From the IMG/VR virus record IMGVR_UViG_3300046758_000204, positions 1-25,981 of that record: a DNA stretch of 25,981 bases; one strand, given 5' to 3'. Made by a program: the position numbers and the translations under genes. Of this stretch, positions 2,711 through 21,426 are shown piece after piece; the stretch's first letter is position 1; each line of letters starts with the position of its first letter. The notes beneath the pieces are model-generated. The model did not search any database. It was not told where the DNA came from and saw only the letters and a program-made list of their open reading frames with translations. Source of the stretch: a virus.

Positions 2711-3337
2711 TTACGAACCGCCGCCTGTAATTAACGAGCCATTTTGTCTTGGTACACTTACACCAATGCCGCCATCAGCATCAGTTTGAATTGCGTTGTC
2801 ATACTGCATTTCTAGTGTAACAGTAACAGGTTCATTGTTTTGGTATGCTAGTGTATTATAGTTTGCATTTGTAATAAAGCAACCGTATAGTTCAAACGTT
2901 TCTAATACGTTTGGTTGATATACACCATTACCACCATCTAAGATTTCAATACGTGTAGTAAATTTATAATCTTGACCTGATACTGGACTTGACTGTTCCA
3001 TAAAGTCAAATTGCTTCTGTAACTGTTCGCCTACAAGTTTTTGTACAGCGTTATTAACATCTTCACGTAAGTTTAGTGTAATTGGCTGCCATGTATGCTT
3101 GCCTGCTAAGTATGCTTTTGAGTTGTATGCATGAATTTCCATTGGCTCAAAAGCAACAGTTGGACGAGTTACGTCAATAACTTGTTTGGTAAGTTCTGTT
3201 GTCGGAGTTGAAACACCAAAGTTTTCCAGCGACACTCTAAAGCGGTACTGGAGCTTCGGCATCAACAAGCCCTGGCTAGCGGCACTGTCTCCACTAGCTA
3301 ACGGAACTGTAATTTTCGATAATGATGAGATTGCCAT
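2711..3337 (-). CDS. gp19: Tail tube protein gp19
   Basis: 208 aa, somewhat longer than T4 gp19 (163 aa). It builds the inner tube of the contractile tail. Visible family features are the LQYRFRVSLENFG strand near residue 30, TKQVIDVTRPTVAFEPMEIHAYNSKAY (residues about 48-75; the VxRPxxxFE.xEVHxYNS pattern), then WQPITLNLREDVNN and EPVTVTLEMQYDNA near the end. The ATG at 3337 has an AGGAG site 8 bases upstream and a late octamer 34 bases upstream. It directly follows the sheath gene gp18, as in T4, and is followed by a strong terminator. Confidence 0.9.
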   Translation of the reverse strand: MAISSLSKITVPLASGDSAASQGLLMPKLQYRFRVSLENFGVSTPTTELTKQVIDVTRPTVAFEPMEIHAYNSKAYLAGKHTWQPITLNLREDVNNAVQKLVGEQLQKQFDFMEQSSPVSGQDYKFTTRIEILDGGNGVYQPNVLETFELYGCFITNANYNTLAYQNNEPVTVTLEMQYDNAIQTDADGGIGVSVPRQNGSLITGGGS

Positions 3338-3374: not shown

Positions 3375-6300
3375 TTATAAGCCTGCTATTTCGCCAGTAT
3401 TCTTAAGTCTTAACGGAATGTATATAAACTCAATTGATTTAACTGGTTCAATTGCTATATCAACATAAAGCTCATTACGATCAATTCTTGCTGGTGTGTT
3501 GTTTGTTTCATCACACACAACTAGGTAGTCATAAAGTGCTCTTTGTCCTACAAGTTCAAGTAATAAACTTTCAACTTGCTGTTTCATCTCATCACGTGTG
3601 ATCTTATCATTTGGTTCAAAGATATAAGGTTTGGCTAATTGATTTAGTTGTGAACGTAAGTACACTACTAGTCTTGCAACGTTAATTCTGTCTAATGAAC
3701 TTGCGCCTCTTGCACGAGTTTTTTGTCCAAAGTTAACAAGTCCTGCGCCTGTAATAAATGTAATTGGATTAACACTATTACTGTATAATGTGTCACGTTG
3801 TCCTTCGTTTAACGAAGTTGAAACAAATTCTCCTTCGCTACTAATATAACCTGTTGAACTTGCATTAGTAATGCCGCCACGTCTTGTTCCTGCTGGAGCA
3901 AACCATGGATAGCTAACTTGATCACTTAGTGCAATAGTACGCATCATCATATGACTTGGTGGAACTACAACATTATTTCCAAAGTTGTCACTTGTAAAGC
4001 CCCATGGATAAAATACGCCTAAGTATTCATCATTAGTAACAAGTCCGTTGTCGTTATCTTCAACAGCAGAGCGAACATTTGTTCCCCACTCATTAAGTGA
4101 AGTTGCATCTGGTTTTAGTCTTGCTGGGCTATCACCAACAACAAATGCTGTTAAGCCTCTGTCACTGTTTAATGTAGTTAACTCGCCAATTAGTTCTGGA
4201 TACCCAGGACATGCAATTAAGTTAAATCTACGTGCATCTTCGTTTCTAATTTCGTCATTACTATTAACTACTGCTTGTAATTTTTGTACAACAACTTTAC
4301 GCTGTGCTTTACGTCCAAAGCTACCTGAACCATCTTCGTTATTTGCTGATTCAGTAACCCAGCGGTCTGCCGCATATGATGTCATTTCTTCATCGTTAAA
4401 GCGTTTGTTAAGAGCAGTTTTATCAACATATCCAACTTCATAACGCTTAACGTTAAACCCACTTCTACGTGTGTTAAACAATAATGTACCTTTTGGATAT
4501 AATGCAGGATCAGGGCAATCAGGATCAACATAGTTCTTTGTTAATAATGTTTTAATTGTTGCCGCTGTATTTCCTTTTGCTCCACTTTCACCGTAACGTG
4601 CGTCAGCAAATACAATACCATTTTCAGTAGTTTGATCACCATTATCTACTAAGTCCCAACGGTCAATTAATGGACCTTTGTACTTGTAAATAGTTGGATA
4701 GTTTTCAATGTCGCTAGTATCAATCCAAAGATCGCCTGCTACTAATGCACTTGTACCGTCTGATTGTTTTGTTGGTTTTGTAGCTGAAACAATTGGTCCA
4801 TTTGCATCTGTACCGTTAACAGCACTATACACTGGACTAGTTGAATCTTTGTATCCAACCCAAACACTACCATTGTTGATCATAATATCAACTTCATCAA
4901 TTGTTGAGTTGTACCATAGCTGACCTTGTACTGCCGCATTAGACGGAGCATTGTTACTAGGTGTATAACTTAATACTTCCCAATTACTTGCTCTAAACTC
5001 TACTGGTGCAATATTATTGTCAACACCTGGTTCGTTAGCAATAAATCTTGTTCCTGAGCCAGTGCTAATATTATAAGGTGAAATGCCTAATGCATTTAAC
5101 GCTGGTGCCGCACTTGAAACATCGTCTTTAAGTTTCATTTCGCCGCCGTTGCTATGTTTTATAACTATACGATCCTGTGCATCTACACTTGCACTAACAT
5201 ATGGAATATTAGCACTTGTGATTGCAGTTGCTAAGTTATTAGCAGTATCTGCACCAGTTGCTGCCGCAAGCCATGTTATTGAATGTGCTGAGAACGTATT
5301 TGCTCCTGGCGATGTTGAACTAATTTCTAATTTATAAGTTAAACCGTCTGTAAAGTTAGCCGGTGTAACCGCACTAGTTGTTACTGTGGTTGCCCCAACT
5401 GCCGCTCTTTTAAATACTTTAAAGGTAGCAAGTGGACTTGCATCGCCGGCAACATTAGTTTGAATGTATAAATCACCAATTGCTAAGTTAGATCCGCCGC
5501 CTGTTTTATCAAGATCAACTAGCGCATCTTGTGCTGTTGGATATAAAGGCGATGATATTGAATCCCAAATTTTTGTTCCGTCGTTCCACTGTTTTACTCT
5601 CCAACGAGCACCTTGGTTTGGTGTAGTTGTTTTAATCCATATACTTCCTGTTGGACGTCCGTTATAAGCTGTTCCACTTTTAAATGTGTCTGGAATTTGT
5701 GTGTGTTTACTAATTTGTACTGCTGGAATTAAATACTGTTCTGCTGACAAGCCTAACCAAGTTAGTGCAGATGCATCTTCGTTTGGTCCTAATGTAAATG
5801 TAATTCTATCAGTTGCAGAACCATCATTGTATAGTGCTAGTTCACCACTAACTTCAGCTGCCGAAACACCTGATATTGCAAAGCCATTAATTGCTGATAC
5901 AACATCCGCTATTGAATCACCTGTACTTACTGTAACTGTAGTGCCATTAAGTAAAAATACTTCTGATCCGCTTTCTGACGAATCTTCACCGTAAGTTGTG
6001 CTTGTTTTAGAACTTGTTACAGTTGGAACAGAACCAATCCACTGTGACGATCCTACTTTAAGCCATCCGCTTGTAGATCTATACCAAATAGTATTAAGTG
6101 TAGTTACAGTAACAACGGCATAGTCGCCAACTGCACCAATTGATCCTAATGGTGTGTAGTCTGCATTGTCGTAATCAACTACTTGTGCTTGTTCTGTAAT
6201 TGCAAGTGGTATTTTATTAGTAAATGTTTGTCCGCCAGTAACTGATTCACTAGCATTATTCCATTCTTGAATACCGTAAACAGATGATGCAGTGTCTAAC

Positions 6301-6707
6301 CAATATGTACCTGCTGTTGGTGCAGAAGTTGGCACTGTTGAAGTTGGAGTAAGTTCTGCTAGATCTACATCTGCTCTTACTACCCATGCTCTGTTGCTTA
6401 CGCCTAAATATGAATATGCCGCTTGTAGGCCATACTCGTTTAGTTCACTTCCGTGAACTGGATTATTACTTGCATCAGTTTGGAAAACAGGGTCGCCAAA
6501 TGTTTCAGCTAAATCACGTTGCGATGTTAGCAAGTAAGGCTTCCCAGCATTAGATGCTAGTGTTCCTATTGCTGTGCCCGAAGCTGAAGCATTTAGTTTG
6601 TTTTCTTGAGATGCAACAAAAATTACTGGTACTGTACCTGGTTCAGCTGGAGTGTAGAAACTCTCATCTATTACGCTTACCTGTACACCTGGTGATGTCA
6701 ATGCCAT
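3375..6707 (-). CDS. gp18: Tail sheath protein gp18, enlarged by inserted modules
   Basis: 1110 aa; T4 gp18 is 659 aa. The N-terminus (MALTSPGVQVSVIDESFYTP) and the C-terminal core (about 700-1110, with LNQLAKPYIFEPND, LLLELVGQRALYDYLVVCD and a final beta strand IEFIYIPLRLK) are typical contractile sheath regions, including the C-terminal handshake strand. Residues about 130-690 are extra beta-rich sequence containing several copies of a G-x-LW-x-T...W module (near 133, 353, 412, 590 and 661), likely exposed on the outside of the tail. The ATG at 6707 has a strong AGGAGAA site 6 bases upstream, and a degenerate octamer (GGTAAATA) lies 49 bases upstream. The tube gene follows. Plus-strand open frames opposite it are shadows. 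Confidence 0.93.
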   Translation of the reverse strand: MALTSPGVQVSVIDESFYTPAEPGTVPVIFVASQENKLNASASGTAIGTLASNAGKPYLLTSQRDLAETFGDPVFQTDASNNPVHGSELNEYGLQAAYSYLGVSNRAWVVRADVDLAELTPTSTVPTSAPTAGTYWLDTASSVYGIQEWNNASESVTGGQTFTNKIPLAITEQAQVVDYDNADYTPLGSIGAVGDYAVVTVTTLNTIWYRSTSGWLKVGSSQWIGSVPTVTSSKTSTTYGEDSSESGSEVFLLNGTTVTVSTGDSIADVVSAINGFAISGVSAAEVSGELALYNDGSATDRITFTLGPNEDASALTWLGLSAEQYLIPAVQISKHTQIPDTFKSGTAYNGRPTGSIWIKTTTPNQGARWRVKQWNDGTKIWDSISSPLYPTAQDALVDLDKTGGGSNLAIGDLYIQTNVAGDASPLATFKVFKRAAVGATTVTTSAVTPANFTDGLTYKLEISSTSPGANTFSAHSITWLAAATGADTANNLATAITSANIPYVSASVDAQDRIVIKHSNGGEMKLKDDVSSAAPALNALGISPYNISTGSGTRFIANEPGVDNNIAPVEFRASNWEVLSYTPSNNAPSNAAVQGQLWYNSTIDEVDIMINNGSVWVGYKDSTSPVYSAVNGTDANGPIVSATKPTKQSDGTSALVAGDLWIDTSDIENYPTIYKYKGPLIDRWDLVDNGDQTTENGIVFADARYGESGAKGNTAATIKTLLTKNYVDPDCPDPALYPKGTLLFNTRRSGFNVKRYEVGYVDKTALNKRFNDEEMTSYAADRWVTESANNEDGSGSFGRKAQRKVVVQKLQAVVNSNDEIRNEDARRFNLIACPGYPELIGELTTLNSDRGLTAFVVGDSPARLKPDATSLNEWGTNVRSAVEDNDNGLVTNDEYLGVFYPWGFTSDNFGNNVVVPPSHMMMRTIALSDQVSYPWFAPAGTRRGGITNASSTGYISSEGEFVSTSLNEGQRDTLYSNSVNPITFITGAGLVNFGQKTRARGASSLDRINVARLVVYLRSQLNQLAKPYIFEPNDKITRDEMKQQVESLLLELVGQRALYDYLVVCDETNNTPARIDRNELYVDIAIEPVKSIEFIYIPLRLKNTGEIAGL

Positions 6708-6748
6708 TGTTTATTCTCCTATTGGAACTGTGTTCTGTTTATTAATTG

Positions 6749-6824: not shown

Positions 6825-7160
6825 ATGCGTCCATTATGTAAATGCGGGTTAAGACCAGCGGCAATTAACTATAAAAAAGGTAACAAAGTTTACTATCGCA
6901 AGTTATGTGAAAGGTGTTCTCGTAATGGCTTAAATCACGGTGTACCTAAATGGAAACAACGAGGATACAAAAAACTTGATACGTGTGAGAAGTGCGGATT
7001 TCATAGCAAACATGAAGAACAGTTTAACGTGTTTCACATAGACGGAGACTTAGATAACTGTCGACCAGCTAATTTAAAAACCATATGTGCTAACTGTCAG
7101 CGGATTCTTCAAAAAGATGGAGTTGTTTGGAAACAGGGAGATTTAGTGCCTGATTTTTAG
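6825..7160 (+). CDS. Small HNH-like zinc-finger nuclease
   Basis: 111 aa and very basic. Cysteine pairs at 5/7, 28/31, 54/57 and 88/91 suggest two zinc sites. The C-terminal half has an HNH core: His71-x-Asp73 in FHIDGD, Asn78/Asn83 in DNCRPANL, then CANCQ, where the usual final His is Gln. Family knowledge: HNH proteins of this size act as homing or DNA-processing endonucleases in T4-like phages. Similar small proteins may be standard in marine T4-like phages, so it need not be mobile. It is the only plus-strand gene in its neighbourhood, and its last 71 bases overlap the end of the convergent kinase gene. Activity is uncertain because of the missing last His. Confidence 0.75.
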   Translation: MRPLCKCGLRPAAINYKKGNKVYYRKLCERCSRNGLNHGVPKWKQRGYKKLDTCEKCGFHSKHEEQFNVFHIDGDLDNCRPANLKTICANCQRILQKDGVVWKQGDLVPDF

Positions 7161-7653
7161 TAAGAATAGTTCGCATTAAGATATCAACATTTTTATGTAA
7201 TCTTGCAAGGTCTCCATTGTTATCAATAGTATAATCACACATCCATTGTTCAATACTCATCGAACTAGGGTCTTCTAAAGGCAAATGATCTGCTCTATCT
7301 ACCCAAATAGCATAATCAAATATTTTTTCATTTTGCATTGCAAAAAATTCACGCTTATTGCGCAACCCACAATAGATATCATGCTCAGCAAACAAATTAC
7401 GACCTAGTCGTGCAAGATCATCTTTACAGTAATTGTGTATCATATTATACCATTCGGTACGATGATTGTGCCGATCTGCATAACACTCTTCTTCGTTAGT
7501 ATATCCATACTTGTCTTTTAGATCATTAAAAATAAAAAGCTCAGAACAAAATTTACTTGATGATTGGAATGTATAACCGTATTTTTCTAACAGTTCGCAT
7601 ACAGTATCTTTGCCATGTCGACCGTGACCTACAATTAATAACTTAGGTAGCAA
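7090..7653 (-). CDS. P-loop kinase, probably deoxynucleoside monophosphate kinase (gp1-like)
   Basis: 187 aa. A Walker A motif opens the protein (GHGRHGKDT, residues 9-17), followed by a helix CELLEKYGY. Further typical nucleotide-kinase features are a basic, helical DRHNHRTEW segment and a strand FDYAIWVDR near residue 115, which resembles the phosphate-accepting part of T4 gp1 and related dNMP kinases. Gp1 phosphorylates dNMPs for phage DNA synthesis; T4 gp1 is longer (241 aa). The start is TTG at 7653, chosen because an AGGAG site lies 8 bases upstream and no in-frame ATG is available. It has its own consensus sigma70 promoter, consistent with early expression. Its 3' end overlaps the convergent HNH gene by 71 bases. 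Confidence 0.75.
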   Translation of the reverse strand: MLPKLLIVGHGRHGKDTVCELLEKYGYTFQSSSKFCSELFIFNDLKDKYGYTNEEECYADRHNHRTEWYNMIHNYCKDDLARLGRNLFAEHDIYCGLRNKREFFAMQNEKIFDYAIWVDRADHLPLEDPSSMSIEQWMCDYTIDNNGDLARLHKNVDILMRTILTKNQALNLPVSKQLHLFEESADS

Positions 7654-11610: not shown

Positions 11611-12042
11611 ATGAAAGATATCGTTTGTAGTGGCGCACTACTTTATTCATTAGAAACAAATAGATTCCTGTTCTTACATAGAGCAAACGGAAAAAGAAAT
11701 AACGTTTGGGGATTAGCCGGCGGCGGCAATGAAGAAGGCGAAACTCCCTTTGAAGGTCTTAGTAGAGAAATCCAAGAAGAAATTGGTACATTAAATATTA
11801 AGAAAACAATACCTTTAGAAACATTTATATCTAATGATTCAAAATTTCATTTTCACACATATCTATGTGTAGTTGAAAAAGAGTTTTTACCAAAATTAAA
11901 CGGCGAACATGACGGATTTGCTTGGGTCGGTTTTGGTAAGTGGCCAAAGCCGTTGCACTCGGGTCTTATGAATACCCTTAATAGAAAGAGTAATATTACT
12001 AAACTAAAAACAGTTATTGATGTAATAAATTTACTTGACTAA
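11611..12042 (+). CDS. Nudix hydrolase
   Basis: 143 aa, a single Nudix domain. The Nudix box is complete at residues 38-60: G-x5-E44-x7-R52-E53-I-Q-E56-E57-I-G59, so the Mg2+-binding glutamates are present. Nudix enzymes hydrolyse nucleoside diphosphates linked to other groups, such as NDP-sugars, ADP-ribose, (d)NTPs or capped RNA; the substrate cannot be read from the sequence. WGLAGGGNEEGE and a substrate-side HFHTYLCVV strand are also present. It stands between gp15 and the heptose operon, and its 3' end contains the -35 hexamer of the hldE promoter. A link to nucleotide sugars is possible but inferred. No Shine-Dalgarno sequence precedes the ATG. Confidence 0.85.
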   Translation: MKDIVCSGALLYSLETNRFLFLHRANGKRNNVWGLAGGGNEEGETPFEGLSREIQEEIGTLNIKKTIPLETFISNDSKFHFHTYLCVVEKEFLPKLNGEHDGFAWVGFGKWPKPLHSGLMNTLNRKSNITKLKTVIDVINLLD

Positions 12043-12069: not shown

Positions 12070-13230
12070 ATGCAAGTATTAATCATTGGCGATATAATTA
12101 TCGATAGATATATTCACGGGACTACTACTAGATTAAATCCCGAAGCACCTGTTCCTGTTGTAAACGTTACTAAAGAGTATGACACGTATGGCGGTGCATC
12201 ATTAGTATTTAAAAACTTAGAGTCGTTAGGTGTTCACGTAACACAACTTCACTACGATGACGAGAAATCAATAAAAACAAGAGTTCTGAGCGATAATCAT
12301 TATATTACACGTATAGATCAAGACACTATTGCAAATGGTGATGATATTGCAAACGATGTTGAAGATCTTGATTTATCTAATTTTGATTATGTAATTCTAA
12401 GTGATTATAATAAAGGTGTGCTTGACAATGTACAAAGAATAATCAAGCATTGTAATAAGTTTAATTGTAAAGTCATTGTTGATCCTAAACGACATGCAGA
12501 CTATTATAAAGGAGCATGGCTTGTTAAACCTAATTCTAAAGAATTTAAAGAATTAGGGTTTGATAAATGGGACGGAAATATAATCATTACTAACGGTGGA
12601 AATGCATGTACAGCAGAATTAGATAATATTAGATATGTATCTAACCCAGATAAAGTTGAAGTATCAGATGTTACAGGTGCTGGAGATTGTTTTCTTGCAG
12701 GACTTGTGTATGGCCTAACTAACGAAATGAGTTTTCAAGAAGCCTTAGATGTTGCTGTTTCGTGTTCAACAGAAAGTGTAAAACATCACGGTACATATGT
12801 TCTTATGCCTAAAGATGTTAGGAAAAAAACAGTGTTTACTAACGGGTGTTTTGATGTATTACATACTGGTCATTTAACTCTTTTAAAAGAAGCTAAAGCA
12901 CAAGGCGATTATTTAATTGTAGGTTTAAATTCTGACGAATCAATACAACAGCTAAAAGGTAACAATCGACCATTTAACAACTATGCAATACGTAGGCAAC
13001 AACTTGAATTAATCCCTTATGTTGACGAGATTATTGAATTTAGCGAACCAACTCCAATTGAATTGATTAAAGATTTACAACCTAATTTAATTGTTAAAGG
13101 CGGCGACTATAAAATAGAAGATGTAGTTGGTCATGACATTGCTCCTGTATATATTGTTCCTACAGTTGAAGGACATAGCACAACAAATATTTTAAAGGCA
13201 CAAGATGAAAATACTAATAACAGGACATAA
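12070..13230 (+). CDS. hldE: HldE/RfaE: heptose-7-phosphate kinase and heptose-1-phosphate adenylyltransferase
   Basis: 386 aa, both domains present. The N-terminal PfkB-type kinase (about 1-245) has MQVLIIGDIIIDRYIHG, the NPEAPVPVV substrate loop, GGASLVFKNLESLG, LSDYNKGVL and the anion hole/catalytic DVTGAGD (200-206). The C-terminal nucleotidyltransferase (about 250-380) has FTNGCFDVLHTGHL with the HxGH motif at 265-268, then GLNSDESI, GGDYK and EGHSTTNI. It makes D,D-heptose 1,7-bisphosphate and, after GmhB, ADP-D,D-heptose. E. coli HldE has 477 aa, so the kinase domain is compact but no motif is missing. It heads the operon, and its end overlaps hldD by 26 bases. No usable Shine-Dalgarno sequence is seen; the promoter implies a leaderless start. 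Confidence 0.93.
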   Translation: MQVLIIGDIIIDRYIHGTTTRLNPEAPVPVVNVTKEYDTYGGASLVFKNLESLGVHVTQLHYDDEKSIKTRVLSDNHYITRIDQDTIANGDDIANDVEDLDLSNFDYVILSDYNKGVLDNVQRIIKHCNKFNCKVIVDPKRHADYYKGAWLVKPNSKEFKELGFDKWDGNIIITNGGNACTAELDNIRYVSNPDKVEVSDVTGAGDCFLAGLVYGLTNEMSFQEALDVAVSCSTESVKHHGTYVLMPKDVRKKTVFTNGCFDVLHTGHLTLLKEAKAQGDYLIVGLNSDESIQQLKGNNRPFNNYAIRRQQLELIPYVDEIIEFSEPTPIELIKDLQPNLIVKGGDYKIEDVVGHDIAPVYIVPTVEGHSTTNILKAQDENTNNRT

Positions 13231-14026
13231 AGGATTTATTGGACAAAATTTAACATTTTATCTACAAGACCATTATGAGCTATCAGGGTACGAATGGCAG
13301 CCTGATTTTTTGCCGGAGGTAGAAGGATTTGATTGGGTAATACATCTTGGTGCAATATCTGCTACAACAGAAAAAGACGTAGACAAAGTTATGCTACAGA
13401 ACTACGAATTTTCTAAATGGTTATATCATCAATGTAATACTAAAGGTGTAAACTTTCAATATGCTTCGAGTGCTAGTGTATACGGAACCAACTTAGACTT
13501 TAGCGAGGATGCTCCTAAGCAACCACAGAGTCCATATGCTTATAGTAAGTATCTTTTTGATAGATGGGTTTGGCATCAACATCAACACAATATTACAGTT
13601 CAAGGACTACGTTATTTTAACGTGTTTGGACCTTTTGAAGATCACAAAGATGATATGATGAGTCCGGTAAGCAAGTTTACTAAACAAGCTAAAGAAACAG
13701 GCACTATTACATTGTTTGAAAATAGTGATAATTATAAAAGAGACTTTATATCTGTTACTGATATTTGTGAAATACATTTACAATTATTAAAAAATAAAAA
13801 GTTAGGACTGTTTAATGCTGGCACTGGTGTAGCAACAAGTTTTCAAAAAGTAGCAGAGGTTATTGCTAAAAAGTATAATGCAAAAATAAATTACATACCA
13901 ATGCCTGCTAAATTAAAAGATCAATATCAAGAATACACATGTGCTGACATTTCTAAATTAAGTACAGTAACAAGTGGAATTAACTTTGAAACAGTAGAGG
14001 AATACATTAATGGAAAAAGCAACTAG
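13205..14026 (+). CDS. hldD: HldD: ADP-glycero-manno-heptose 6-epimerase
   Basis: 273 aa, an extended short-chain dehydrogenase. Visible are the NAD(P)-binding GHKGFIG (7-13), HLGAISATTE (47-56), the YASSASVYG strand with catalytic Ser, and YAYSK (Tyr111/Lys115). HldD-specific sequence includes RYFNVFGPFEDHKDDMMSP, LFENSDNYKRDFISV, GLFNAGTG, IPMPAKLKDQYQEYTCADIS; these parallel E. coli HldD closely from memory, which separates it from UDP-sugar epimerases. It converts ADP-D,D-heptose to ADP-L,D-heptose, the donor for GT9 heptosyltransferases. E. coli HldD is about 310 aa, so this is slightly compact. It overlaps hldE by 26 bases and the cupin gene by 17. Confidence 0.92.
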   Translation: MKILITGHKGFIGQNLTFYLQDHYELSGYEWQPDFLPEVEGFDWVIHLGAISATTEKDVDKVMLQNYEFSKWLYHQCNTKGVNFQYASSASVYGTNLDFSEDAPKQPQSPYAYSKYLFDRWVWHQHQHNITVQGLRYFNVFGPFEDHKDDMMSPVSKFTKQAKETGTITLFENSDNYKRDFISVTDICEIHLQLLKNKKLGLFNAGTGVATSFQKVAEVIAKKYNAKINYIPMPAKLKDQYQEYTCADISKLSTVTSGINFETVEEYINGKSN

Positions 14027-14396
14027 ATTAACTGGTGTAGTAGAAAAAGGTTGGGGTTACGAAATGATATGGGCTACCAATGAACACTACTGTGGCAAAA
14101 TTATGGTATTTAACAGAGAAGGTGCAAAAACTAGTATGCACTTTCACAAAGAAAAAGACGAAACTTGGTTTGTGAATAGCGGCAAGTTTAAAGTTGCATA
14201 TATTGATACTAATAATTCTACATTGTATGAAAAAGAATTAGGTGAAGGTGCAACATGGCATAATCCACCTTTACAGCCACACCAATTAATTTGTCTTACC
14301 AAAGAAGGAAGTGTTACTGAAGTTAGCACTGCTGATAGTGTTGAAGACAACTACCGAATTGGCCCGGGCGATAGTCAACAAATTGAAAGTAAATAA
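14010..14396 (+). CDS. ManC/phosphomannose-isomerase-type cupin
   Basis: 128 aa, a single cupin. Motif 1 is G38-x5-H44-x-H46-x4-E51-x6-G58; the motif 2 histidine is His91 in PPLQPHQL, so a 3-His/1-Glu metal site is likely. KGWGYE at the start and EVSTADSVEDNYRIGPGD at the end resemble the C-terminal cupin of bifunctional ManC (mannose-1-phosphate guanylyltransferase/phosphomannose isomerase). Such cupins interconvert ketose and aldose phosphates. Its place inside the heptose operon makes a sugar-phosphate isomerase role plausible, perhaps on sedoheptulose 7-phosphate; this is inference. The ATG overlaps the end of hldD, with GAGG upstream. Confidence 0.8.
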   Translation: MEKATRLTGVVEKGWGYEMIWATNEHYCGKIMVFNREGAKTSMHFHKEKDETWFVNSGKFKVAYIDTNNSTLYEKELGEGATWHNPPLQPHQLICLTKEGSVTEVSTADSVEDNYRIGPGDSQQIESK

Positions 14397-14397
14397 T

Positions 14398-15009
14398 ATG
14401 GAAATGCATGAAATATTTCCAGTCGGTATAATGCGGCATCATGTTGATAAAGAAATGGCCGACACAATGGAAACTGAGATAGTACCATTATTAGATAGAC
14501 TAGAACGCAATACACCTATATTAGATTCTGTTGGTGACGAGTATTTGTCAGTTGATACTATGTTTACTGATTTTTGGGACAACAAAATTCCAGTACACGA
14601 GATTGTTCCAGACTTTTGGAATGTAGTAAGAGAAGCCGCATATACATATGCTGATCAAACTAGTTATTTTATTAACCCTAATTTTAAAGTTCGATATTGG
14701 ACTCAAAACTATGTTGGCAGAGACAGACATGATATTCATCAACACGGTATAAATGGTATTAGCGGAACATACTTTGTTAGAGCAAATGAAAATGCAGGGC
14801 CTATAAGATTTTACAATCCTAATAATACAGCTGAATATGTTAGAGCTGGTAATCCGCTAAACAAGTATACACAAGGTCATCACGATATATGGCCAGAAAA
14901 AGGCTTACTGTTATTATTTCCGTCTTATATAAAACATGCTGTAGATTCTGGCAGGAACGAAGATGTTATCAGAACCTCAATATCATTTGATTGTTGCCCA
15001 GGAGTTTAG
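14398..15009 (+). CDS. Putative 2OG-Fe(II) oxygenase, tandem copy 1
   Basis: 203 aa. The C-terminal double-stranded beta-helix has the iron/2-oxoglutarate signature: H111-D112-x-H114-x-H116 in RHDIHQHG, a distal His180 in FPSYIKH, and Arg192 in RTSISFD for the cosubstrate. The pattern fits the 2OG-FeII_Oxy_5-like family frequent in marine T4-like phages. The substrate is unknown; a sugar or lipid in the same pathway is a contextual guess. The start at 14398 (MEMHEIF) follows the cupin stop by one base; ATG at 14404 is an alternative. An upstream in-frame start at 14311 lies inside the cupin gene and is rejected. It shares TDFWD-x-KI-x-VHE-x-VPDF with the next gene. Confidence 0.8.
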   Translation: MEMHEIFPVGIMRHHVDKEMADTMETEIVPLLDRLERNTPILDSVGDEYLSVDTMFTDFWDNKIPVHEIVPDFWNVVREAAYTYADQTSYFINPNFKVRYWTQNYVGRDRHDIHQHGINGISGTYFVRANENAGPIRFYNPNNTAEYVRAGNPLNKYTQGHHDIWPEKGLLLLFPSYIKHAVDSGRNEDVIRTSISFDCCPGV

Positions 15010-15576
15010 ATGTATAAAGATTTATTTTCAGTACCCGTTTTACACATAAAAATTGATGAAGCTGTTGCTAATGAGATGGAATATAAAATCATTCCTCTAC
15101 TAGATCAACTTGAAAGAGAAAATGATTGTGTATCTACAGATTTTTGGGATAGAAAAATTTCAGTACACGAATTAGTTCCAGATTTTTTTCAAATTGCAAC
15201 ACAAGCGGCTCTTGATTTTCAAGAACATTCTGGTATTGAAATAGATGAAGAACTTAGAATAAAATACTGGACGCAAGATTACAAGCCAGGTGATCAGCAC
15301 GATGTACATCACCATGGTATACATGGTATAAGTGGTACTTATTGGGTAAGAGCAAATCAAGATGCTGGATCTTTTAGACTGTATAATACAAATCCGTATA
15401 GTGACTTAGTAAAGCACAAAAATAAGACAGATTATACAGTTGCATACGAAGATTTTTGGCCGGAAAAAGGATCAATGTTATTGTTTCCTTCTTACATGAA
15501 ACATTGTGTAATGCAAAGTGGCAAGGACGCTATTCGCACTTCAGTTTCATTTAACTTTGGTTGTACTCATGTATAA
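15010..15576 (+). CDS. Putative 2OG-Fe(II) oxygenase, tandem copy 2
   Basis: 188 aa, a paralogue of the preceding protein: both share the TDFWDxKIxVHExVPDF region, the KYWTQDY/RYWTQNY strand and a WPEKG-x-x-LLFPSYxKH ending. Metal/cosubstrate residues are H97-D98-x-H100, distal His165 and Arg176. The gene starts immediately after the previous stop, with AGGAG overlapping that gene's last codons, so it is coupled. It lacks a segment of about 10 residues near position 40 present in copy 1, where that copy has an Asp/Glu-rich loop. The pair arose most simply by tandem duplication and divergence. The substrate is unknown. Confidence 0.8.
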   Translation: MYKDLFSVPVLHIKIDEAVANEMEYKIIPLLDQLERENDCVSTDFWDRKISVHELVPDFFQIATQAALDFQEHSGIEIDEELRIKYWTQDYKPGDQHDVHHHGIHGISGTYWVRANQDAGSFRLYNTNPYSDLVKHKNKTDYTVAYEDFWPEKGSMLLFPSYMKHCVMQSGKDAIRTSVSFNFGCTHV

Positions 15577-16249
15577 AATTAATTGGAGTACAGAAAAAAC
15601 TGAGTCAACAGAAAAATCTGTAAAAAATAATAATATACGTTATAGTACTGATGCTCCAACACCTTACTACAATAGTACAGATAATATTGCACCTAAAGTT
15701 GTTGTAGGATTAGATCGAGATGGTGTTATTAATATTGATCGAGGTGAATATACTTACAAAGTTAAAGACTTTGAACCTATTCCTAACAGTTTAGAAGCAG
15801 TTGCTAAAATAAGACGATTAGGACATAAAATTGCAATTATTACTAATCAAGGCGGTATTGCTAAAGGATTATTTACTGAAGCTGATGTAGACAAAGTACA
15901 CGACTATATGTTTGAATTACTCGGCGAAGCAGGCTGTCTAAGCATTGACGCATTATATTATAGTGCATCAAGTGTGCGTCATGACATGTATGCTAAACCT
16001 AATGTTGGTATGTTTAAAAGATGCGAGGACGAAAATCCTTTTATAAAGTTTAAGAAAGGATATTTTGTTGGAGATAAAATATCTGATCTAAAAGCCGCAT
16101 TTAAAATTGGTGCAACACCAATACTAGTGAAAACAGGTTACGGTTTAGAAACTATAAAAGAATTAAACAAATTTTCAAATCAAAAAATAAAAAAGAAAAC
16201 TCTTATATTTGATGATTTAATGTCTGTTGCTAATTGGTTGGAAAATTGA
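15569..16249 (+). CDS. gmhB: GmhB-like D,D-heptose 1,7-bisphosphate phosphatase (HAD family)
   Basis: 226 aa from the ATG at 15569, which overlaps the previous stop by 8 bases. HAD motifs are complete: D49-R-D51-G (motif I, VVGLDRDGVIN), T92-N93 (ITNQGGIAKG, motif II), Lys143 (YAKPNVGMF, motif III) and VGDKISD (167-173, motif IV). The DRDGVIN, TNQGGIA and KPNVGM combination is that of GmhB/HisB-type phosphatases; with hldE and hldD beside it, heptose bisphosphate is the likely substrate. The Cys/His zinc loop of classical GmhB is absent: YYSASSVRHDM replaces it. A Ser/Thr/Asn-rich N-terminal extension of about 40 residues precedes motif I. Its end overlaps the convergent gene by 20 bases. Confidence 0.85.
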   Translation: MYKINWSTEKTESTEKSVKNNNIRYSTDAPTPYYNSTDNIAPKVVVGLDRDGVINIDRGEYTYKVKDFEPIPNSLEAVAKIRRLGHKIAIITNQGGIAKGLFTEADVDKVHDYMFELLGEAGCLSIDALYYSASSVRHDMYAKPNVGMFKRCEDENPFIKFKKGYFVGDKISDLKAAFKIGATPILVKTGYGLETIKELNKFSNQKIKKKTLIFDDLMSVANWLEN

Positions 16250-16847
16250 GGCCAAAGTTAGCACTAATAGATACACGTATTTCTTCTGTTTTATTATACG
16301 TTACATAATGATCTAAGTTACTTGGAAAAAATACAATATCGCCTTCTTCCATTAAAGGATTAAACAATTTACCGTTATTTCCAGGACCATAAAATCTTTC
16401 AGTTAAGTGAGTCGGAAACCAATTCAATGCACTATTGTAAAACATAAACTGTCCACAATCGGGATTGTTATCTGGTAAGTCAAGTACATATGCACAACTA
16501 ACTAAATTATTACCGCTTCCATGCGAATGCACATCTTGATGTTGATATTGACTATATTTGTTTGCCCATGCACTTCCAGTTAGATGACTAAAGTCTTCTG
16601 GTTGCATTCCTAAATTTTGAAGATATGATTGTAATGGTCCTTGTACATTTTCAAAGAATATATCCCAAGGTAACTGATTATTTTCTTCATAGGAGTTGTG
16701 TGTAGTTTCACAATTACATTCCCAATGCGAACTACTATGTTTAAATGCTGTACTGTCTTGTATAAATTCTGTAAATTTAGATTTTATATCTTTATGTTCA
16801 GGCATTTTACATTTTAAAATTGGTGCTCCAAAAATACTATCTATCAT
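16230..16847 (-). CDS. Putative 2OG-Fe(II) oxygenase, third copy
   Basis: 205 aa, more distant from the two plus-strand paralogues. The signature is H103-x-D105-x-H107-x-H109 in YQHQDVHSHG, distal His180 in FFPSNLDH and Arg191 in RVSISANFG. The N-terminal region has several Cys/His residues (HWECNCETTH) not found in the other two. It ends the minus-strand operon: its ATG at 16847 overlaps the end of the carbamoyltransferase gene by 11 bases. The stop overlaps the convergent gmhB end by 20 bases, and no terminator is visible between the two operons. Substrate unknown. Confidence 0.78.
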   Translation of the reverse strand: MIDSIFGAPILKCKMPEHKDIKSKFTEFIQDSTAFKHSSSHWECNCETTHNSYEENNQLPWDIFFENVQGPLQSYLQNLGMQPEDFSHLTGSAWANKYSQYQHQDVHSHGSGNNLVSCAYVLDLPDNNPDCGQFMFYNSALNWFPTHLTERFYGPGNNGKLFNPLMEEGDIVFFPSNLDHYVTYNKTEEIRVSISANFGLNFPTN

Positions 16848-18639
16848 TTTTAATAGTTACTTTCACATTATGTTCTGGTAAGTACAAATATTCAATATCA
16901 CTGTTAGCAAGTGTTCTAAACGCATCATCTAATGTTTCTACTAAAGGTTCTCCGCCTAGATTAAATGACGTATTGAATATAATTGGAACACCAGTATGTT
17001 TATAAAAGTCATTAATTAAATCATAATAAACTTCATTTTGTTCTCTAGTTACTGTTTGTATACGACATGTACCATCGATATGAATAATACTTGGAATTTT
17101 TTCTGCTACACCTTCTTGACAATTCATTGCATACATCATGTGCGGAGAATCTTTCATACCACGCATGTCAAACCATTCTTCTGCATGTTCTGCTAATATT
17201 GTGCCAGCAAATGGACGAAAATATTCTCGACGTTTTACTAAGTTTACATGATCTTTTCCGTTAGGATCTGTTGGGTCATAAAGTATACTTCTGTTACCTA
17301 ATGCTCGTGGACCTGATTCTGAGCGTCCTTGGAACAACGATACAATATTTCTATCAGTAATTAATTTGACAATATCTTTGTTTTCTGCTGTAGTAACATC
17401 AGCATTATACTGTAAGGCTAACATTTCAACATCGTCTCTCGAATATGTTTTTTCAGGACCTAAATATAAACTTTCGCCAAACGGTCTTGTATTAGTATTT
17501 TTAGTAATAGAGTGCCAGCCCATCATAGCCGCGCCAATAGCAGTGCCAGCATCACTTGAAATAGGTTCAACGTATAAATTAATACCTTCGTCTTTTAACT
17601 CTTTAAGATAATGATAGTTTGCAACACAGTTTAAGCCATAGCCGCCACTTACTACAACATTCTTATGACCTGTCATTTCTACTGCTTTGCGTATTAAACG
17701 TAATACTTCATCTTGACTTTGTGTTTGTACAGCATATGCCATATCTCTTCTACTTTGCAATTTAGTTAAGTTGTCAGACTTTTCAGGTGTAACTAATTCG
17801 TTGTAACGACCTTCATTAACTATAGCTCCATTTGGATATGTAGGAATAATAAGATTCTTGTCAGATGTACGCCAGTCTCCTCCAGCATCAGTATATAATG
17901 GCGGAATTTTATCATTTGGCTTGCCATACGGAAACAACCCCATAGTTTTTCCGGCTTCAATATATTCAAACCCGCAATAACCTGTTACTGCTTCGTATGT
18001 CTTAACTATTCCGGCAGCATCATCAATAATAGCTTCATGTGTTTCACCGTCTTCCATAAACCATTCACTTGACATGTTAGGGTCTCTCATTGATACGTAA
18101 GGACCATTACCACCCAAGTGTTTGTATATTGTTTTAAAGTTATCAGGATATGCACATGTAAAAATTGATTCAAGTTCCCAAACAATGTCGTCATTACCGT
18201 TAACGTTCATTGGAATAAATGTTCCAGCACCGTCAACAATTACTGACACTGCTTCATCAAACCCACTACGATAAAATGCACACCCAGCGTGTAACTTATG
18301 ATGAATTTTTGATAAGTCAACAACTTGCGGATGATTCCATAAGTCTGTACCAGGTCCTCTTTCAATTAATCCTAATTTACGTGCCATACCAGTATATACA
18401 TTATCACCAGTAAAGTCAACGGTTGCGGCAGTTTCCTCTAAAGTTTGAGTATGTGCAACAAATATATAATCAAGTTTATCTGTATATTCTAAAATTTTTA
18501 CCATACTAGCAAAAGGACCACCATCATATTTTTGTCTACTTAGGCGTTCTTCTTCTACAGCAAAGACAATTTCTCCGTCTTTTAGTAAGCATACGCCGCC
18601 ATTATGGCCGCGTGTTATTCCGGCTATCCACTGACTCAT
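16837..18639 (-). CDS. O-carbamoyltransferase (NodU/CmcH/WapO type)
   Basis: 600 aa, full length for the family. The N-terminal Kae1-like domain shows GITRGHNGGVCLL (His12), AVEEERLSRQKYDGG, HHKLHAG (His113, 114, 117) and SVIVDGAG; a second part has VSGGYGLNCVAN (330-341) and SSDAGTAIGAA (361-371). The C-terminal domain has FQGRSESGPRALGNRS (436-451), FRPFAGTIL and NTSFNLGGEP (556-565). These enzymes activate carbamoyl phosphate with ATP and carbamoylate a sugar hydroxyl. WapO of Pseudomonas aeruginosa, of this family, is implicated in 7-O-carbamoylation of core heptose, which makes a heptose acceptor likely here. A strong AGGAGG site precedes the ATG, which overlaps the GT9 stop as ATGA. Confidence 0.9.
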   Translation of the reverse strand: MSQWIAGITRGHNGGVCLLKDGEIVFAVEEERLSRQKYDGGPFASMVKILEYTDKLDYIFVAHTQTLEETAATVDFTGDNVYTGMARKLGLIERGPGTDLWNHPQVVDLSKIHHKLHAGCAFYRSGFDEAVSVIVDGAGTFIPMNVNGNDDIVWELESIFTCAYPDNFKTIYKHLGGNGPYVSMRDPNMSSEWFMEDGETHEAIIDDAAGIVKTYEAVTGYCGFEYIEAGKTMGLFPYGKPNDKIPPLYTDAGGDWRTSDKNLIIPTYPNGAIVNEGRYNELVTPEKSDNLTKLQSRRDMAYAVQTQSQDEVLRLIRKAVEMTGHKNVVVSGGYGLNCVANYHYLKELKDEGINLYVEPISSDAGTAIGAAMMGWHSITKNTNTRPFGESLYLGPEKTYSRDDVEMLALQYNADVTTAENKDIVKLITDRNIVSLFQGRSESGPRALGNRSILYDPTDPNGKDHVNLVKRREYFRPFAGTILAEHAEEWFDMRGMKDSPHMMYAMNCQEGVAEKIPSIIHIDGTCRIQTVTREQNEVYYDLINDFYKHTGVPIIFNTSFNLGGEPLVETLDDAFRTLANSDIEYLYLPEHNVKVTIKNDR

Positions 18640-19604
18640 TTATTACCTCCTACTTGCAATAACGGTTTAGTGTTTTTTCTTCCTAATTTTTTTCTAATTG
18701 AATCAACTATTTGTTTAGTTTGTGTTTTGTTTAAATCCATACATTTATCATTTATTCTATCAGGTTCTTCTTCATTAGTAATTCTAATTGGACTATATAC
18801 TCTCATATCTTCACCTATGTCAAAAATTTCAACATTAGGATCATTTATATACGATGTATTGACCGGGTACGTGCTTCCAATCACTACAGTTGATTGTGTA
18901 TCAAGTGCTTTAGCAATATGTTGTCCTACGCTATCACATCCTAAAAAATGATCTGCGGCATTAATAACACCTGCCCAAATACGTATGTCTGGTATTTGTG
19001 GCTGTGCTATAGGTATGTTATCATCTTTTGAATTTTGCATATTTAGTTGTATTTCGCTCATTAAAATAACAGCATAATCTTGCTTTAGTTGATTTGCAAT
19101 TTCTAACATATCTTCAGATCTAAAACTTCTCGAAGTTACATCAATTAAATCTTCTTCAGTTGTGCGTCCAAAAGGTTGTATTACTACTACTTTGTCTTTG
19201 CCTGTTGTTTCTTTAACTTCTTTAATTACATTTTCGCCTTGTGCTTTTTCAATCTTATTAAGATATACTGAAGGAACTGATACATCACGTAATCCTTTGT
19301 TGTTAATTTCTATATCAAATGCCTGTGCTAAACTGCATTTTTGATTATAGTATTCCCACACTCTGTACGGCTCAGGTGAGACACAATTTCTGTCTTTTAT
19401 AAAAGATTCAAATAGCCCTTTGTGCCATGTATCATACGCACGTCGATGTAGTGTTGGATGTCCTTTATAAAAATCTGTGCCTGCTTCACAAACAATAATA
19501 AAGTCATCGTTTGGATTTTCTTTTTCGTATGCTTCGAATGCAGGTATCGAAGTTATAACACGGCCAGCGCCGCCATTGATAAAGAAAGCTGTTGATCTTG
19601 TCAT
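18636..19604 (-). CDS. GT9 (ADP-heptose:LPS heptosyltransferase-like) glycosyltransferase
   Basis: 322 aa from the ATG at 19604. GT-B fold features: an N-terminal acceptor-side motif FFINGGAGRVITSIPAF (7-23), a linker strand VVVIQPFG (139-146), and the donor-binding FLGCDSVGQHIAKAL (220-234) followed by STVVIGST, matching the D-S-x-x-x-H-x-A-x-A-L pattern of WaaC/WaaF/RfaF. With hldE, hldD and gmhB nearby, ADP-L,D-heptose is the probable donor. The acceptor (LPS core, phage glycan or other) is unknown. A GTG start 12 bases upstream is possible, but the AAAGGG site suits the ATG better. It is first in an operon with the carbamoyltransferase and an oxygenase. Confidence 0.85.
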   Translation of the reverse strand: MTRSTAFFINGGAGRVITSIPAFEAYEKENPNDDFIIVCEAGTDFYKGHPTLHRRAYDTWHKGLFESFIKDRNCVSPEPYRVWEYYNQKCSLAQAFDIEINNKGLRDVSVPSVYLNKIEKAQGENVIKEVKETTGKDKVVVIQPFGRTTEEDLIDVTSRSFRSEDMLEIANQLKQDYAVILMSEIQLNMQNSKDDNIPIAQPQIPDIRIWAGVINAADHFLGCDSVGQHIAKALDTQSTVVIGSTYPVNTSYINDPNVEIFDIGEDMRVYSPIRITNEEEPDRINDKCMDLNKTQTKQIVDSIRKKLGRKNTKPLLQVGGNK

Positions 19605-19618
19605 AGAATAATACACCC

Positions 19619-19677: not shown

Positions 19678-19714
19678 GATAAAAAAAGGCTGTATAAACA
19701 TACAGCCTTTTAGT
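19678..19714 (-). terminator. Strong Rho-independent terminator after the tail-fibre module
   Basis: An 11-bp perfect stem (AAAGGCTGTAT / ATACAGCCTTT, 4-base loop) is followed on the minus strand by seven T in all, then AT. It closes the tail-fibre operon before the GT9 promoter. The plus-strand side has only a short T-run, so termination is mainly leftward. Confidence 0.9.
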
Positions 19715-19731
19715 ATTATTGTTAATATTGA

Positions 19732-20562
19732 TTATAACTCAGTTGGTGTTTTGTCTATTACATCACAGAATGGAAAACATGAATCTACAAATATTAATGG
19801 AACATTTGCTTCTTGCATTGCTGTCGGGAAGTCACGTAGTAATTGTCTATACACAACAAGTTTGTCCCACTTATCTTTGTCAATATCTTTCATAATTAAA
19901 AACAATGTGTCAGTAGACGCAAGTCTTTCATCACGTTCTGTACGTATTTCATCCCAAGTATTAGCTACACCAATTATGTCTTCATTTGTATGCTTATACA
20001 AATCTAACTCATTAGTTTCAAAGTTCCACTTACTAAGTTTTTCGTCATATAAGTCATCTGGATGAATAGGATATTCATATTCAAATGGCATATAGCCTTC
20101 TGGTACTGGTATTTTTTTAGTACCTGGAGTTTCTACCCATTCTTCTTTGTCTTTATAATTGTCATGATAGTCAGACATAACTTCTGCATCTAAAGGATGT
20201 TCTCTAGCATCTAACTTAACAATTACCATTTCTTCAGGATCTGGCATGTATTGCCAGTTGTCAGTTGACTCTAGAACTTCAAATTCTCTTTGTATATGTC
20301 GAATAAGGTTTGTTTCTTTTTCTACCCAAAGATATAAAAATTTAGGACCTTTATATACAGTATCAATAGTTTCAGTTTCTTCACCATCCATATAATTGTC
20401 TTTTGGACATTCATAAGAATAGTTTACTTCAACCCATTCAGTTCCGTGTTCGTCGGTCATCTCAATGTCTCTATAGTCAATTACTTCACTATCTAGTTCA
20501 TCTCGATCGTCGTCGATGTTTGGATTTACTTCGTCAATTACGTTTTCTTCTTCACTCATCAT
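19732..20562 (-). CDS. Tail assembly chaperone-like protein with long acidic region
   Basis: 276 aa and strongly acidic. Residues about 202-246 carry a pattern typical of phage tail assembly chaperones (Phage_tail_APC-like): NTWDEIRTERDERLASTD, then a W-D-K-L-V-V-Y-R-Q-L-L-R-D-F-P segment. Members of that family help fold or attach tail fibres. The first about 200 residues are unlike the short classical chaperones: Asp/Glu/Tyr-rich with WVEVNYSYECPKDNY and a beta-rich middle. The ATG at 20562 directly follows the stop of the Cys-rich gene, whose last codons supply the GGAG site; an ATG one codon later is equally usable. Its position last in the fibre operon fits a chaperone for the fibre or the Cys-rich protein. 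Confidence 0.7.
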   Translation of the reverse strand: MMSEEENVIDEVNPNIDDDRDELDSEVIDYRDIEMTDEHGTEWVEVNYSYECPKDNYMDGEETETIDTVYKGPKFLYLWVEKETNLIRHIQREFEVLESTDNWQYMPDPEEMVIVKLDAREHPLDAEVMSDYHDNYKDKEEWVETPGTKKIPVPEGYMPFEYEYPIHPDDLYDEKLSKWNFETNELDLYKHTNEDIIGVANTWDEIRTERDERLASTDTLFLIMKDIDKDKWDKLVVYRQLLRDFPTAMQEANVPLIFVDSCFPFCDVIDKTPTEL

Positions 20563-21426
20563 TTAACTCCAAGTTATTCTCATCATACCAGGATTACCAG
20601 GAGTACCTCTACAGTAAGATAGTGATCCGCCGCAGTACGATTTCATTGAATTTGATCCACCGCCTGATACTTGTCTAAATCCTCTACAACAGTTAGTACA
20701 ACCACAGTAAACAACTGAATTTTCAATATGATAAGTGTGTCCGTTACTAATTCCCCAAGATGCTGAAACTGATGTGTGTCTTGAGTTACAATCACAGTTT
20801 CCTCTTGATTTAATAAATGCTGGTTCGTCACCTAAGTCTACCCAGTCAAACTTTTGACAGAAACATAATCCGTTATTACACATGCCGTCTGTTCTGTTAC
20901 CTTGGTTATTACATCTGCAACTACAGTAAAGGTTATATCCGCCTCTACCACCTGTCATACACGTACAGCATAAACATCTTCCACTAAATCGTGTCATACA
21001 CCCTCTTGGTGCATCACAACATGCAGTATAGCAACCACATCCGTTGTTAGTAGTTCCGTTGCCGCCTGCGCCAATACACCAGCAATATATACAACCTGGT
21101 GCAAAACATCCGGCCTGTCTATATAGTGTTCTTCGACCGTAGTACCCACTCATTGCTCCACAACTAACCATATCGCACCAGCAGCCTTGACAACAGTGAC
21201 CTGCGCCAGCGCCGCCGCCGCTCCACATTTCAAATTGTACTGTTTGCGCACAATCAGGTACTGTCCAAGTACCTGTTCGCTGACAGTGTGATCTACATCT
21301 GTGTGGACCACAGCATACTAAACATGTGTTAAAGCAGGTACATGTACCACCTGGGGATCTTCCAGCAGTTCGCTGACAAGTCCCGTCTGGGTATTTCATA
21401 CCCGTACTAATTAGCTCAGTTGCCAT
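20563..21426 (-). CDS. Cysteine- and glycine-rich probable tail-fibre adhesin
   Basis: 287 aa with 41 cysteines (14%), many as CC, CxC or CxxC, and many glycines. It begins MATELISTGMKYPDGTCQRT and contains a WSGGGAGAGHCC stretch; apart from the cysteines this recalls the glycine-rich domains of T4-like tail-fibre tip proteins. No signal peptide or membrane segment is seen. Cysteines start at residue 17 and stop about 15 residues before the end. The frame is genuine: GGGAG site, 1-base gap to the fibre gene upstream, and a coupled gene downstream. Likely a virion surface protein, possibly disulfide-stabilised or metal-binding after lysis. I know no characterised homologue. Confidence 0.75.
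   Translation of the reverse strand: MATELISTGMKYPDGTCQRTAGRSPGGTCTCFNTCLVCCGPHRCRSHCQRTGTWTVPDCAQTVQFEMWSGGGAGAGHCCQGCWCDMVSCGAMSGYYGRRTLYRQAGCFAPGCIYCWCIGAGGNGTTNNGCGCYTACCDAPRGCMTRFSGRCLCCTCMTGGRGGYNLYCSCRCNNQGNRTDGMCNNGLCFCQKFDWVDLGDEPAFIKSRGNCDCNSRHTSVSASWGISNGHTYHIENSVVYCGCTNCCRGFRQVSGGGSNSMKSYCGGSLSYCRGTPGNPGMMRITWS

Follow-up and report, generated by a model that had tools for sequence, protein, structure and literature searches.

Two of the closest described systems serve as the starting point here. In three phages, Sullivan et al. (2010) found the recurring gene clusters T4-GC 304, 305, 307 and 308, and raised the question of whether these have a function or amount to stuffer DNA (PMC3037559); in the sequence records these four are noted as the C-terminal half of HldE, the N-terminal half of HldE, a cupin and HldD, respectively. 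The second system is bacterial: TibC uses ADP-heptose to attach heptose to an adhesin (PMC4358343). Here we describe a 25,981-base virus fragment from IMG/VR (the window, meaning the whole stretch of DNA analysed), which carries an island of ADP-heptose synthesis genes together with a GT9-like glycosyltransferase, a NodU-type carbamoyltransferase and, just upstream of the transferase, a fibre-tip protein extremely rich in cysteine. From this locus and its relatives, the lipopolysaccharide (LPS) genes of large marine phages seem to be conserved as a unit together with a host-recognition protein, and a marine jumbo phage probably adds sugar to the tip of its own fibre instead of acting on the host surface alone. 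An earlier note on this DNA, made from its letters alone, had already recognized the heptose genes; that observation is confirmed, and its interpretation is partly supported, with the emphasis moved here from the LPS of the host to the fibre tip of the virion itself.

The heptose genes themselves have good precedent. The same set occurs in the cyanophages P-SSM2, S-SSM7, S-CAM3 and Sf-FS3, where the so-called LPS cluster (T4-GC 302-308) encodes the same enzymes between fibre and neck genes (S-SSM7, Sf-FS3, S-CAM3) or beside fibre genes (P-SSM2). These examples differ from the window in having a split HldE and a small protein of the haloacid dehalogenase (HAD) type in place of GmhB, and their GT9-like gene had been annotated as hypothetical. 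The carrier differs as well. The structural genes of the window are of the myovirus type (neck, tube, sheath, gp15), and the best matches of its gp15 and gp18 are the jumbo phages PA5oct, Atu_ph07 and Phosso, which rules out a cyanophage origin and gives the window a PA5oct/Atu_ph07-like backbone, unlike that of the cyanophage cluster carriers; psbA was not found in large relatives either. A phage-borne heptose pathway is therefore not new, and for the synthesis genes the earlier idea that a near-complete pathway is unusual has to be given up, since several cyanophages and numerous viral contigs carry the same set. The novelty lies in the context formed by the GT9-like enzyme, the carbamoyltransferase and the Cys-rich fibre-tip protein. 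A literature search limited to open-licence papers found no published description of this module, whose window members are, on the minus strand:

16837..18639 (-), NodU/TobZ-type carbamoyltransferase, 600 aa; Carbam_trans_N and Carbam_trans_C above Pfam gathering
18636..19616 (-), glycosyltransferase of predicted GT9 fold, PHROG 8954, 326 aa; the family start suggests Met at 19604
19732..20562 (-), tail-fibre assembly chaperone; PF16778 Phage_tail_APC, E=9e-8, above gathering; PHROG tail fibre assembly
20563..21426 (-), Cys-rich, Gly-rich fibre-tip (adhesin-like) protein, 41 Cys in 287 aa (14.3%); proposed acceptor

The linkage between the transferase and the Cys-rich protein is of particular interest. 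The Cys-rich proteins are one family (PHROG 4205 in 37/37 relatives, PF21722 Gly_rich_2 in 18/37), and the fibre-tip proteins of cassette loci contain 9-15% cysteine. A structural model of the window protein, with a predicted local distance difference test score (pLDDT) of 65 and so read for fold class only, gave viral Foldseek matches to Gly-rich domain and tail proteins, including Syn9 Gp38. Across 93 GT9 loci the gene order is one to three copies of the Cys/Gly-rich protein, usually a tail-fibre chaperone, the GT9-like gene and the carbamoyltransferase. Wherever the flank was sufficient, the Cys-rich protein stood upstream of GT9 (81/81 loci); the remaining 12 loci were without it, and in these GT9 lies no more than 1.2 kb from the locus edge. 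When the search was seeded with the Cys-rich protein, 27 of 37 loci contained GT9; eight of the other ten end within 165 bp, and in the two further loci the contig is cut 1.2-1.8 kb downstream. Among GT9-less relatives with adequate flank, the Cys-rich protein was found in 0/29 of those chosen by gp13 (cyanophage type) and 0/22 of those chosen by gp15 (window type), and no Gly-rich open reading frame (ORF) outside the module in GT9-less relatives exceeded 3.3% Cys. Searches of 20 whole records found GT9 in nine, the Cys-rich protein in all nine of these (one identified by composition) and in none of the other 11. Likewise, the 16 INPHARED records with a Cys-rich homologue all fall within the 26 that have a GT9 match.

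Two phage backbone lineages carry the module. In the GT9 tree the backbone labels are largely separate, with two changes and long branches, and we therefore make no claim of transfer between backbones. It can be imagined that the cysteines serve metal binding or cross-linking and that the enzymes, with no functional tie to the adhesin, are cargo of a fibre hot spot. Fibre regions do accumulate cargo, and about 10-14 of the 41 cysteines in the window protein are invariant or nearly so, as expected for metal or disulfide sites; however, GT9 and the carbamoyltransferase stay constant while other cargo varies, and the linkage is kept in both backbone lineages. We regard this explanation as very improbable.

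The identity of the transferase comes mainly from structure. The protein matches PHROG 8954 (E=4e-132), and Pfam GT9 (PF01075) reaches E=0.004 and 16.9 bits, under its gathering cut-off of 22. Since a sequence search of the PDB with its profile returned no match, the protein was folded in silico (AlphaFold2, 44-sequence alignment, pLDDT 87). Foldseek placed the model closest to the GT9 protein 3tov (E=3.5e-10), then TibC (4rb4/4rap), WaaC (2gt1) and WaaF (1psw); on these matches, the modelled transferase has a GT-B GT9 fold. The C-terminal D-x-G-x-x-H-like donor motif is also kept, with D228-S-V-G-Q-H233 aligning with D261-T-G-L-S-H266. The TibC/AAH family of bacterial autotransporter heptosyltransferases thus shares the GT-B fold, and TibC is among the best Foldseek matches, but these enzymes have no detectable sequence similarity to the phage protein, which is shorter and in which the catalytic Asp position is apparently not conserved. 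Nor does it have their iron finger of four Cys (PMC4358343), as no CxxC was seen on reading the 326-aa sequence. The family occurs in at least 525 viral contigs (IMG/VR) versus seven GTDB contigs, all with phage-like neighbours, and is essentially phage-restricted. One contig binned as a euryarchaeal metagenome-assembled genome, probably a phage contig, has two GT9-like copies around one carbamoyltransferase (L090:3034-3984 and 5784-6740).

The island also carries the genes predicted to supply the sugar. It is made up of two convergent operons, flanked by gp15 on one side and by fibre genes on the other, which overlap at 16230-16249. The plus strand reads NUDIX, fused HldE, HldD, cupin, two 2-oxoglutarate (2OG)-Fe(II) oxygenases and GmhB; the minus strand, from the fibre side, reads GT9-like gene, NodU-type carbamoyltransferase and a third 2OG-Fe(II) oxygenase. 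Every island reading frame is intact, and the arrangement first described for HldE, HldD, GmhB, the GT9-fold gene and the NodU-type gene stands, with five intact ORFs. The cupin and the three oxygenases, which had been overlooked along with the chaperone and the Cys-rich protein, belong to the island. The NUDIX gene (11611-12042) does not: it also flanks gp15 in PA5oct-like Pseudomonas jumbo phages and is therefore counted as a backbone gene. The plus-strand sugar genes are:

12070..13230 (+), HldE, fused heptose-7-phosphate kinase and heptose-1-phosphate adenylyltransferase, 386 aa; PfkB and CTP_transf_like above Pfam gathering
13205..14026 (+), HldD, ADP-heptose 6-epimerase, 273 aa; TIGR02197, 252 bits (cut-off 274.6, slightly missed)
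14010..14396 (+), cupin, PHROG 7851 (labelled 'cysteine dioxygenase'); Cupin_2 above gathering
15566..16249 (+), GmhB-like heptose-1,7-bisphosphate 7-phosphatase; PRK08942, 133 bits (cut-off 178)

HldE has both domains with their catalytic motifs (NPEAPVPVV, TGAGD and HTGH, seen by reading), HldA (4e84) as its PDB match and HldE as its top NCBIfam model (271 bits, under the equivalog cut-off of 521). At 386 aa against the 475 positions of the model it is a shortened phage form, and shortening partly explains why HldE, HldD and GmhB all fall under the NCBI equivalog cut-offs. Aligned with E. coli HldD, the HldD of the window shows 41% identity, and it matches PDB 1eq2 (E=3e-49); its Y111, K115 and K148 align to catalytic Tyr/Lys positions and are invariant in 32 relatives. 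For the phosphatase, GmhB is the best model, the HAD motif DRDG is present and the PDB matches are GmhB structures (4pnh, 3l8e, 2gmw); the zinc-binding cysteines of GmhB were not seen in the window protein. From heptose 7-phosphate onward, then, each step is covered as had been claimed: the enzyme identities hold, the HldD catalytic residues are conserved and the model bears out the GT9 fold.

The entry step is another matter. GmhA was absent from 15/15 module-bearing records, four complete phage genomes among them, and none was seen in the window, itself a fragment; it was also absent from the S. elongatus control. The ADP-heptose pathway of the island has no GmhA for its entry step. All nine relatives of the cupin examined match D-lyxose isomerase (best 3e-4) and four match mannose-6-phosphate isomerase (best 2e-6), enzymes that catalyse the equivalent ketose-aldose reaction. 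This weak likeness makes the cupin a candidate ketose-aldose isomerase that could replace GmhA; HldE, HldD and the cupin occur together in 30/33 loci. T4-GC306, labelled 'phosphoheptose isomerase', was considered for the GmhA role and ruled out. It is a HAD phosphatase-like protein of ~110 aa and is nearly mutually exclusive with GmhB (GmhB in 53 loci, T4-GC306 in nine, both in one). As the two substitute for each other, T4-GC306 is probably the phosphatase of the pathway. The misannotation is found in cyanophage proteins at L003:23055-23390, L002:15312-15656 and L004:19421-19747.

Putative tailoring functions accompany these genes. In addition to the carbamoyltransferase, the window encodes:

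14383..15009 (+), 2OG-Fe(II) oxygenase 1; PF13759, E=7e-15, PHROG 81
15010..15576 (+), 2OG-Fe(II) oxygenase 2; PF13759, E=3e-15
16230..16847 (-), 2OG-Fe(II) oxygenase 3; PF13759, E=4e-13

The carbamoyltransferase is 65% identical to its S-SSM7 homologue, and its PDB matches are the carbamoyltransferases 7xb6, GdmN and TobZ. Like the NodU/TobZ/GdmN O-carbamoyltransferases it has both domains and the conserved His/Asp set (H113, H117, D136 and D363, invariant among 88 relatives), but it belongs to a phage family, PHROG 1601, and adjoins the adhesin-GT9 pair. By analogy with NodU and TobZ, its target would be a hydroxyl group of a sugar. Extra tailoring genes occur elsewhere: the S-SSM7 module has a second carbamoyltransferase and a tryptophan halogenase (L003:17390-20998), and the AG-345-O18 module a sulfotransferase (L005:4469-5305).

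We propose, with confidence that is evenly divided, that the island is a virion-decoration module which equips the Cys-rich adhesin of the phage itself with a carbamoylated sugar derived from ADP-heptose, in the manner of TibC. The kinase domain of HldE would convert heptose 7-phosphate to heptose 1,7-bisphosphate, GmhB would convert this to heptose 1-phosphate, the adenylyltransferase domain of HldE would form ADP-D,D-heptose and HldD would epimerize it to ADP-L,D-heptose, with the entry isomerase coming from the host or being the cupin. The phage-specific GT9-like enzyme, for which fold and gene company suggest ADP-heptose as donor, would then transfer heptose onto the product of the gene immediately upstream, the Cys/Gly-rich fibre-tip protein; carbamoylation of the transferred sugar, or of the protein, would fall to the NodU-type enzyme. 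For the 2OG-Fe(II) oxygenases, a role in preparing or tailoring the acceptor is possible. Such decoration could serve fibre stability, receptor binding or evasion.

Several observations favour the adhesin over a host receptor as acceptor. Its extreme Cys content tracks the presence of the enzymes, and TibC, to which the transferase is structurally related, attaches heptose to an adhesin in bacteria (PMC4358343). Furthermore, the LPS of Synechococcus WH8102 contains neither heptose nor 3-deoxy-D-manno-octulosonic acid (Kdo) (PMC4515613), and WH8102 is the isolation host of the cassette phage Sf-FS3, which weakens the case for remodelling of the host LPS core. Of the three purposes offered in the earlier note, host LPS remodelling thus loses ground, while virion decoration is the best supported, with GT9 and the carbamoyltransferase locked to the Cys-rich protein.

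Some points weigh against this proposal. The placing of the Cys-rich protein as a modified virion component comes from genomic linkage, and the loci share ancestry, so that the linkage counts are not independent. Enzymes that act on the receptor of the adhesin would be expected to show the same linkage. Indeed, modification of receptors by phages is common, and the enzymes may remodel a host-surface glycan (LPS or other), masking the receptor of the linked adhesin and thereby excluding superinfection or preventing re-adsorption of progeny. The adhesin linkage would suit a receptor-adhesin pair, the LPS heptosyltransferases WaaC and WaaF lie within the GT9 fold, and heptose genes are also found in larger phage glycan clusters. 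Yet Sf-FS3 carries the module although its host has heptose-free LPS, and host-glycan remodelling leaves unexplained why an adhesin with 9-15% Cys occurs only where GT9 is present. We consider it a possible explanation, though a distinctly less probable one than decoration of the adhesin.

The donor raises a further difficulty. In WaaC, Asp13 is the proposed catalytic base. In a weak profile comparison with WaaC/WaaF (probability 1.9%), of which only the N- and C-terminal motifs were used, this residue of the N-terminal GD motif aligns with Arg19, which is invariant in the phage family; with the canonical GT9 catalytic Asp so replaced, either catalysis has to proceed in another way or the donor may be something other than ADP-heptose. 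Set beside WaaC/WaaF and the HldE-GmhB-HldD pathway as a whole, the phage module thus shares the fold, the C-terminal motif and the pathway enzymes, and differs in Arg19, in the absence of GmhA and in its linkage to fibre rather than LPS genes. Moreover, HldE does not always lie close to GT9, and five shorter GT9-positive contigs yielded none. The GT9-like enzyme might use another nucleotide sugar, the ADP-heptose genes being a separate pathway that shares the insertion region. Minimal modules have adhesins, GT9 and the carbamoyltransferase nearby and nothing else; and HldE, HldD and the cupin also occur in glycan clusters without GT9, as in S-SM2, P-TIM68 and S-T4. On the other hand, HldE is present in 18/24 GT9-positive records (8/9 in the whole-record cases and 10/15 further records) versus 0/8 GT9-negative records not chosen for carrying HldE, and the top Foldseek matches are GT9 proteins, ADP-heptose enzymes included. 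A different donor is, in our judgement, unlikely. The clusters of S-SM2, P-TIM68 and S-T4 (L293, L294 and L295) combine HldE, HldD, the cupin and HAD306 with other glycosyltransferases, and contain neither GT9 nor a Cys-rich adhesin.

Given the Cys content of the proposed acceptor, it is attractive to speculate that the cysteines are themselves the modified residues, through S-linked chemistry. The fullest version of this idea, in which fibre tips are heptosylated and carbamoylated on cysteines (S-linked heptose or S-carbamoyl) by a non-canonical phage GT9, with the cupin as sedoheptulose-7-phosphate isomerase, we find doubtful. Should the adhesin be the acceptor, the module would be a phage counterpart of bacterial adhesin heptosylation, and the carbohydrate genes of marine phages, many of them listed as host-altering tools, would be read differently. 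The question posed in 2010, whether such LPS genes in large marine phages have a function or are mere stuffer DNA, is given a concrete and testable answer.

Some minor features of the window remain to be mentioned. One is found where the fibre genes give way to the GT9 operon:

19684..19711, perfect 12-bp stem hairpin, a possible terminator by consensus match only

A promoter scan gave no signal above shuffled sequences. Among the structural genes, that of the sheath encodes a protein of unusual length (1110 aa), and two tail-tube-like proteins lie side by side (1392-2627 and 2711-3337, minus strand), one much the longer. A Cys/His-rich ORF of 111 aa (6825-7160, plus strand), on the strand opposite to the sheath gene that it adjoins, reads like an HNH endonuclease. 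Finally, the ORF at 7090-7653 (minus strand), which starts MLPKLLIVGHGRHGKDTVCE, has a P-loop-like motif and is possibly a nucleotide kinase.

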